From positions 1 to 34,229 of the forward strand of contig JAILOI010000096.1 of the NCBI GenBank assembly GCA_024690885.1: 34,229 bases of DNA, read 5' to 3'. The notes under the pieces were generated by a model that was not told the DNA's origin, ran no database searches, and worked only from the letters and a program-made list of their open reading frames with translations. The DNA comes from Lachnospiraceae bacterium (GTDB lineage Bacteria; Bacillota; Clostridia; Lachnospirales; Lachnospiraceae). A program made the position numbers and the translations under genes. The stretch's first letter is position 1. Each line of letters starts with the position of its first letter. Of this stretch, positions 4,647 through 34,229 are shown piece after piece.

Positions 4647-5522
4647 ATGAAGTTTGTCAGTTATTTGGATGCGGTGAAGGCCGGAGAGGAAACCCTTGCG
4701 GCGGCCGGCATTGTAGATGCGAAAATTGATGCGAAATATCTGTTTGAAAGTATGCCGGGACATGATTCCAATTTCTTATTGTTGTATGGCAGGCGTCAGA
4801 TGGATGAGGACCAGCGGCTTGCTTATGAGGCGTTGATTCAGAAGCGGGCCAGTCATATTCCGCTGCAGCATATCCTAGGCTATACCGAGTTTATGGGACT
4901 TCGTTTTACGGTGAATGAACACGTGTTGTGTCCACGCCAGGACACGGAAACTCTGGTAGAACTTGCCCAGTCCTACTTACAGCCGGGATGCCGGGTTTTG
5001 GATATGTGTACCGGTAGCGGTTGTATCCTGATTTCCCTTTTGGCTTTAGGCAAACGGGGCGTGGTGGAACCGGGTGGATTTGTTGGTGTTGCCAGCGATA
5101 TCTCCGAGGAAGCATTGGAAGTGGCGAAGCAGAATGCCGAAGATCAACGGGTGGAGATTCGCTTTTTACAGGGAGATCTGTTTGATTCCCTACAAGCACT
5201 TCCAACAGAGGAACGGCGTTTTGATTTGATTGTTTCCAATCCACCGTATATTCCGACGGCCGGAGTATGGTCACTGATGCCGGAGGTGCGTGACCATGAA
5301 CCGAAGATTGCATTGGACGGTTCGGATACGGGGTTGGTTTTCTACGAGCGTTTGACTTCGCAGGCAAGTGAGTTTTTGAAGCCGGGTGGACGGATGCTGG
5401 TGGAAATCGGATATGATCAGGCCGAGGATGTGTGTCAATTGTTCCGGGAGCATGGATTTTCGGATGTGGTTTGTCACAAGGATTTGGCCGGGAACGACCG
5501 CGTGGTGATGGGACACTTGTAG
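4647..5522 (+). CDS. prmC: Peptide chain release factor N5-glutamine methyltransferase
   Basis: RQDTETLVELA, VLDMCTGSGCILISL, FDLIVSNPPYIP (NPPY motif); upstream of prfA. Confidence 0.95.
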   Translation: MKFVSYLDAVKAGEETLAAAGIVDAKIDAKYLFESMPGHDSNFLLLYGRRQMDEDQRLAYEALIQKRASHIPLQHILGYTEFMGLRFTVNEHVLCPRQDTETLVELAQSYLQPGCRVLDMCTGSGCILISLLALGKRGVVEPGGFVGVASDISEEALEVAKQNAEDQRVEIRFLQGDLFDSLQALPTEERRFDLIVSNPPYIPTAGVWSLMPEVRDHEPKIALDGSDTGLVFYERLTSQASEFLKPGGRMLVEIGYDQAEDVCQLFREHGFSDVVCHKDLAGNDRVVMGHL

Positions 5523-33189: not shown

Positions 33190-33669
33190 ATGGACGAGAT
33201 CAAGAAATTATCCGAAGAGCTTGCAAAAGATGTAAGCACCAAGGCTACAGAAGCAAAGAAGGCTGTTGAGTCTAAGGCTGCTGCAGCTAAGAAAACCGTT
33301 ACTAAGAAGGCTACCGCAGCTAAGAAGGCAGCGACTACTAAGACTGCCGCTGCTAAGAAGACCGTAGCTAAGAAGGCTACCACTACCAAGAAGGCAGCTA
33401 CAACTAAGGCTACTGCAGCTAAGAAGACTGCAACCAAGAAGGCTACAACAGCTAAGAAGACCGTTGCTAAGAAGGTCGCAGCAGTTGTTAAGGATCCTAA
33501 GGTAAATGTTAATTTACAGTTTGCTGACAAGGATTTGAAGCTGAACGACATCGTTAAGAAGGTTCAGGCTGCTGAGAAGAACGGCAAGAAATATGATATC
33601 TACTTGAAGCCGGAAGAGCACAAGGCTTACTTCGTTGTTGATGGTAAGGCTGGAGCAATTGACTTATAA
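33190..33669 (+). CDS. Histone-H1-like Ala/Lys/Thr-rich protein with DUF6465-like C-terminus
   Basis: KKAVESKAAAAKKTVTKKATAAKKAATTKTAAAKKT... repeats followed by folded tail VNVNLQFADKDLKLNDIVKKVQAAEKNGKKYDIYLKPEEHKAYFVVDGKAGAIDL; SD GAGAGGAGAA. Confidence 0.85.
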   Translation: MDEIKKLSEELAKDVSTKATEAKKAVESKAAAAKKTVTKKATAAKKAATTKTAAAKKTVAKKATTTKKAATTKATAAKKTATKKATTAKKTVAKKVAAVVKDPKVNVNLQFADKDLKLNDIVKKVQAAEKNGKKYDIYLKPEEHKAYFVVDGKAGAIDL

Positions 33670-33704: not shown

Positions 33705-33733
33705 GGACGTTGGTTTTCCAACGTCCTTTTTTT
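33705..33733 (+). terminator. Intrinsic terminator after histone-like gene
   Basis: GGACGTTGG (33705-33713) TTTT CCAACGTCC (33718-33726) TTTTTTT. Confidence 0.9.
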
Positions 33734-33782
33734 GTTGCCCATGCCCGTCACCCTTTTCTTTGTATCCTGTGGTCTAAGGATA

Positions 33783-34218
33783 GATTTTCTCGTGGGTAAA
33801 GACATGCCTTCCCAGGTGTCCTTTTAACAGGATTTTACATGTTCAAAGTGATTGTACGTCCATCTGACGCACGCTTTTTTCTTTTGATATCCGCTCTGTA
33901 TTTTGGCTTCCATCCCGTAGTCGCTTGGCACTGTGTTACAACGAAGTTTGTTTTCACGGATTTGGGCACCACATAAGAATCGCATCCGTGCTTGGGCTTA
34001 TGTTCGCCATGCCGTCCATGGCATGGCGTGCCCATCCGTTGAAAACAAATCTTCTGTAACACAAGCACCCGCTTTTAGGGGATGGAACCAAAATACAGAG
34101 GGATATCCAATTGATACAAAATAATTAGCGTGCGTCAGGGACGTACCTTCACAAAGAACATGTAAAGACTTTAAAAGACACCGAAGGAGGAAGGCATATC
34201 TACCCACGTTAGAAAATC
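33783..34218. repeat. Giant imperfect inverted repeat (about 436 bp) able to form a single long branched stem; structured RNA or DNA-hairpin/MITE-like element
   Basis: In-register complementary blocks: 33783-33790/34211-34218, 33791-33797/34202-34208, 33804-33812/34189-34197, 33815-33820/34177-34182, 33822-33827/34171-34176, 33834-33844/34156-34166, 33848-33851/34149-34152, 33854-33861/34139-34146, 33864-33874/34128-34138, 33886-33892/34101-34107, 33894-33906/34088-34100, 33908-33916/34079-34087, 33932-33940/34055-34063, 33943-33946/34051-34054, 33947-33955/34041-34049, 33957-33961/34034-34038, 33964-33969/34028-34033. Confidence 0.9.
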
Positions 34219-34229
34219 ATTCTTATGAT

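Follow-up and report, generated by a model that had tools for sequence, protein, structure and literature searches.

The question raised by this locus is what kind of element lies at the end of the window (the whole stretch of 34,229 nt that was analysed, which is all of contig C108), and whether its stem is kept as RNA or as DNA. An earlier, sequence-only reading had described there a giant nested inverted repeat and had taken it for an undescribed large structured RNA or, failing that, for a mobile or replication-type DNA hairpin. The element is a giant, multicopy, mobile-looking form of a known orphan motif, TwoAYGGAY, and it is the giant form that is new. The evidence agrees with the guess of a DNA hairpin no less well than with that of a structured RNA.

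Results

The giant repeat is borne out by folding. As RNA, the 470 nt at 33760–34229 form one rod of −233 kcal/mol, compared with a mean of −118.8 (sd 5.8) for 100 shuffles, none of which was as stable (z = −19.8), and the minus strand folded with DNA parameters gives −142.2 (z = −22.7). From its outermost pair the imperfect palindrome, assigned to the minus strand, spans 33783–34218, and the blocks quoted in the sequence-only reading were found in nested order: 33783–33812 with 34189–34218 (the outer arm, which has a recurring GATTTTCT / AGAAAATC block), 33834–33861 with 34139–34166 (beginning TTTACATGTTC, outside the Rfam model and recurring in other copies), 33864–33884 with 34118–34138, and 33894–33906 with 34088–34100, the first two of these being supported by copy alignment as well as by pairing. 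The long stem thus stands, but the earlier count of about 132 Watson-Crick pairs does not, since about 157 pairs make up the enclosing stem across the 436 nt of the hairpin. The contig ends at 34229, only 11 nt past the hairpin, and the window copy may therefore be incomplete; it is probably cut off by the contig end. On the other side, 33734–33782 (GTTGCCCATGCCC...) is probably the remainder of one arm, whose partner would lie past the contig end, and other copies end in TTTTTTGATTGCCC / TTTTTTGTTGCC. Immediately before the inserted region is the intrinsic terminator of the upstream gene (33705–33733, plus strand; GGACGTTGG TTTT CCAACGTCC T7). The gene is at 33190–33669 on the plus strand, outside the element, and belongs to the DUF6465 family (PF20069, E 5.9e-15) with a Lys/Ala-rich N-terminal part. 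The element is indeed a unit separate from this gene, which had been called histone-like.

The tip of the palindrome is already known. A cmscan search matched minus-strand positions 33919–34077 to Rfam RF01731, TwoAYGGAY, over the full model 1–168 with 53.8 bits against a gathering cut-off of 43, which places the motif on the strand opposite to that chosen in the sequence-only reading; on the plus strand no other Rfam family came near threshold. The sequence and the minus-strand fold give two apical hairpins with AYGGAY-like GGA loops, one at 34005–34028 with ATGGAC at 34014–34019 and one at 33972–34002 with ACGGAT at 33984–33989, and two such hairpins were present in 78 of 86 copies. Because the model is 168 nt long it accounts for the tip only, and what had been called undescribed is so for the outer palindrome beyond the model. 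The sequence-only reading had named a hit to a known Rfam family as grounds for refuting it, and this match does so in part. The window element is nonetheless firmly an extended RF01731 element. TwoAYGGAY was listed in a 2010 survey as a probable RNA that is probably not cis-regulatory (PMC2864571), and a proposal of 2014 made it a CsrA ligand on account of loops resembling CsrA sites (PMC4333381); our literature search found no later test of that proposal.

The sequence-only reading had missed the copy number. In the host genome, a Lachnospiraceae MAG of 2.18 Mb that is 81% complete, there were 26 RF01731 matches, 21 of them above the cut-off, and the window copy is one of these roughly 26. 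Many intact copies have about 200–260 enclosing pairs, far past the Rfam core, though a few of the longest stem calls probably take in fortuitous pairing with neighbouring genes. About seven full-length copies have T6–7 tracts on both sides at 232–248 nt from the core, and the unit is therefore about 620–650 nt; an element of about 436 nt, as first described, is large and structured but shorter than the full-length form. Conserved terminal inverted repeats were examined, and the sequence beside the T tracts varies between copies. Aligning 22 copies brought out blocks that recur beyond the bounds of the Rfam model, and strong arm-to-arm covariation: for 57 of 71 consensus pairs, at least one copy has both partners altered with the pairing retained. 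Within a copy the arms match out to about 300 nt from the core, and at 150–250 nt the mean score was 63 within copies versus 16.5 between copies, with 12 of 18 copies above the 99th percentile of the between-copy arm control. Arms match within a copy, then, and mostly not between copies.

Two further features of the copies were observed. At L060, L062 and L079 the outermost arms match perfectly for some 34–40 bp; the 5′ arm is rich in C, the 3′ arm in G, and CCCCGCCG / CGGCGGGG is frequent in them. Where two TwoAYGGAY copies on opposite strands lay within about 700 nt of each other, all nine pairs noticed had the minus-strand copy first and the plus-strand copy second, a divergent arrangement (G086 C1 and C5, G008 C47 and C33, G037 C123, G116 C7 and G329 C47; loci L098, L100, L101, L103, L108, L109, L112, L113 and L114), and one close pair in G372 was on the same strand.

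Comparison with relatives showed that element sites are polymorphic, a MITE-like feature. Three same-genus genomes had 2, 7 and 2 RF01731 matches versus 26 in the host. The window site downstream of the DUF6465 gene was located in Lachnospiraceae bacterium XBD2001 and in MAG RUI004, where the counterpart terminator leads, directly or after a second terminator, to convergent htpG (Hsp90) with the element absent, and an RF01731 scan of these two loci gave no match. Where the host has copy C13_7979, in a stretch of about 680 bp, G150 has 31 bp; at the C48 site the gap measures 858 bp in the host and 222 bp in G049, and at the C103 site G049 has a different palindrome. At C13_5905 the relatives carry a small gene instead, and this site is therefore not a simple insertion. 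Gain in the host is the simpler reading, loss in the relatives being possible. No target-site duplication was found among these relatives, which at about 75% identity are too diverged for exact placement of the ends. Orientation relative to the gene on the 5′ side of the motif was random overall (same/opposite: 10/9 in the host, 6/9 and 8/6 in two other genomes).

The same sites offered some observations of their own. A second kind of intergenic palindrome, sharing GAAGGTCTGCGNAGCAGAGCTT and having no significant Rfam match, occurs in the same-genus genomes G049 and G150 (L170, ~450–730; L165, ~5358–5379; L166, ~4891–4912), in G049 at the same site as copy C103 of the window's genome. Around copy C13_5905 (L063, 5623–5650 and 6325–6343) the palindrome reaches the two convergent genes and overlaps their ends, where both have, about the stop codon, a TCTAATCACAAG-like tail in inverted arrangement; template switching across the element might leave such a trace. 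Another intergenic region of G049 (L172, ~900–1350) contains several short inverted repeats in succession, built on CCCTATGCC / GGCATAGGG.

RNA helices tolerate G-U but not A-C pairs, and G-U is expected to be the commoner of the two in a stem kept as RNA. SRP RNA from 22 Lachnospiraceae, the RNA control, had 20.1% G-U and 1.2% A-C, and the TwoAYGGAY alignments 0–3.3% G-U and 0.3–1.8% A-C. The pooled G-U:A-C counts were 49:30 for TwoAYGGAY versus 199:12 for SRP RNA (p = 9e-11), the former itself leaning slightly towards G-U (p = 0.04), and because the copies are related these counts are of non-independent events. Among single changes from Watson-Crick pairs between copies the G-U:A-C ratio was 0.81–1.14 in two genomes versus 2.1–2.7 in SRP RNA at every divergence compared. 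The apical hairpins had 6 G-U and 3 A-C against 1102 Watson-Crick pairs. As a caveat, one smaller set, the core in G122, gave a G-U:A-C count of 12:1. A first count on arm-to-arm alignments was mixed between zones, probably due to some conserved mismatches. Two other RNA controls gave 19:8 in 57 intrinsic terminator hairpins, which is at most suggestive, and 7:0 in six tRNAs. A rate of double changes above that of SRP RNA was also considered and rejected, the double:single ratio being 0.14–0.62 versus 0.53–0.78 in SRP RNA, and the argument for a DNA-level process therefore rests on the missing G-U preference. Since covariation is strong and comes without that preference, the stem seems to be maintained as DNA; upkeep of the arms at the DNA level is supported, not proven. 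Template switching is perhaps the route of upkeep. Such switching in the course of replication has been described as able both to make and to repair hairpin arms (PMC8794818), and it could act on an RNA gene or on a pure DNA element.

The loops invite comparison with CsrA sites. CsrA has the published consensus RUACARGGAUGU, whose GGA usually sits in a loop of six bases, and in SELEX short stems were preferred (PMC7652899); the tip stems of TwoAYGGAY copies are often longer than these. The host has csrA (PF02599, E 1.2e-25). In a family sample of 150 genomes csrA was found in 21 of 21 motif carriers versus 80 of 150 overall (Fisher 4e-7), and in a class sample of 391 genomes in 31 of 36 carriers versus 125 overall (2e-12), both tests ignoring relatedness. 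The five motif genomes lacking csrA are drafts in several contigs, and three of the five are less than 90% complete; all 12 motif-bearing families fall among the 37 families with csrA. Flagellin, though, tracked the motif equally (33 of 36 motif genomes in the class sample, 142 overall), so that motility confounds the link to csrA; the association was accordingly downgraded as proof of function, and the link may be to motility. A putative CsrA-decoy role of the copies is plausible. Inspection of the aligned 5′ arm by eye showed no promoter.

Several motif genomes also have a divergent CsrA-like protein of 93–132 aa, mostly as a second copy (G008 C14; G037 C137; G042 C27 and C54, with L132 677–964; G060 C30 and C52; G143 C16). 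In G042 its neighbours are a small tyrosine-recombinase-like ORF and a gene resembling flagellin; it lies 1.2 kb from a TwoAYGGAY copy, and was set aside as having no clear link to the motif.

Discussion

Our tentative explanation, which we hold as possible and not as established, is that the window hairpin is one copy of a dispersed, mobile palindromic element with a TwoAYGGAY tip, kept up as DNA and acting as a CsrA decoy. Mobility is suggested by the many copies and their differing presence between close relatives, and a DNA process by the match of arms within copies together with covariation that shows no preference for G-U. Template switching, or arm-to-arm correction of the extruded palindrome, would keep the arms complementary, and copies would multiply in the manner of a non-autonomous insertion element, frequently next to gene terminators. 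In what is the least certain part of the proposal, a transcript of the motif strand would present two GGA hairpin loops to a CsrA dimer, and the set of copies might then serve as a scattered decoy. The slight G-U excess counts against this explanation in so far as a pure DNA element would not need it. Other points against it are that no target duplication or transposase came to light, that flagellin tracks the motif as well as csrA does, and that tip stems are often longer than those CsrA prefers. Extended to RF01731 as a whole, the proposal becomes doubtful, though worth stating: the family may be primarily a class of palindromic DNA elements and not an RNA family, widespread in motile Clostridia, its arms built and matched by template switching, spreading beside gene terminators and bearing CsrA-like GGA loops at the tip.

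The missing G-U preference would also agree with a mobile palindrome acting at the DNA level only, in which a recombinase or transposase recognises the folded strand or cruciform through the tip loops and the element does nothing as RNA. Random orientation to genes, differences between relatives in copy number and site, and the position of several copies between convergent terminators are all consistent with it, but the GGA loops matching the CsrA consensus and the tracking of csrA by the motif would then be coincidence, no enzyme could be assigned, and the relatives, too diverged for exact ends, gave no target duplication; we consider it rather unlikely. The same loops, two per copy, are what a classical family of CsrA-sequestering sRNAs would predict, with copies expressed, stems selected as RNA and the giant stem serving only to stabilise the transcript. 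Co-occurrence with csrA, covariation, the earlier proposal (PMC4333381) and the divergent arrangement of the nine close pairs agree with this, but G-U is not preferred over A-C as it is in SRP RNA and is scarce even in the tip hairpins, and several copies, lying between convergent terminators, have little promoter room outside the hairpin, which makes such a family unlikely.

Two other explanations were rejected. A cis-regulatory leader or riboswitch has in its favour the Rfam type label only and is very improbable given the random orientation in three genomes and the verdict of the 2010 survey (PMC2864571). An assembly chimera joining a sequence to its own reverse complement could be suspected because the window copy, like several others, is at a contig end; it is scarcely credible, as the arms are imperfect with recurring internal loops common to many copies, and intact copies occur inside contigs and RF01731 also in single-contig genomes.

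Listed in 2010, TwoAYGGAY is still an orphan candidate RNA, and the analysis gives three testable handles on it: its near confinement to csrA-bearing, flagellated Clostridia, the difference in its sites between related species, and stems that lack the G-U preference of control RNA. If the DNA reading is true, covariation by itself does not prove an RNA function, and a comparison of G-U with A-C may be needed for families now listed as RNA. If the decoy reading is true, this would be, to our knowledge, the first CsrA-sequestering RNA system in Clostridia.

Among known systems the element is closest to TwoAYGGAY as modelled, sharing the whole-model match and the paired GGA-loop hairpins, but the palindrome is about 440 nt in the window and 620–650 nt in full copies, with outer blocks absent from the 168-nt model. 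It resembles the sRNAs CsrB/CsrC and RsmX/Y/Z in that its hairpin loops carry GGA as the CsrA consensus does, in a host with csrA; those, however, are from Gammaproteobacteria and carry many sites in one RNA, whereas the copies here are in Clostridia, with two sites each, predicted only, over about 26 loci. With MITE or REP/BIME palindromes it shares being non-coding, dispersed, intergenic, palindromic and sometimes arranged as inverted pairs. REP units are far shorter than these giant palindromes. The element also differs from these palindromes in that no transposase or target duplication was found for it, that its outer arms are mostly unrelated between copies and that its internal loops are conserved.
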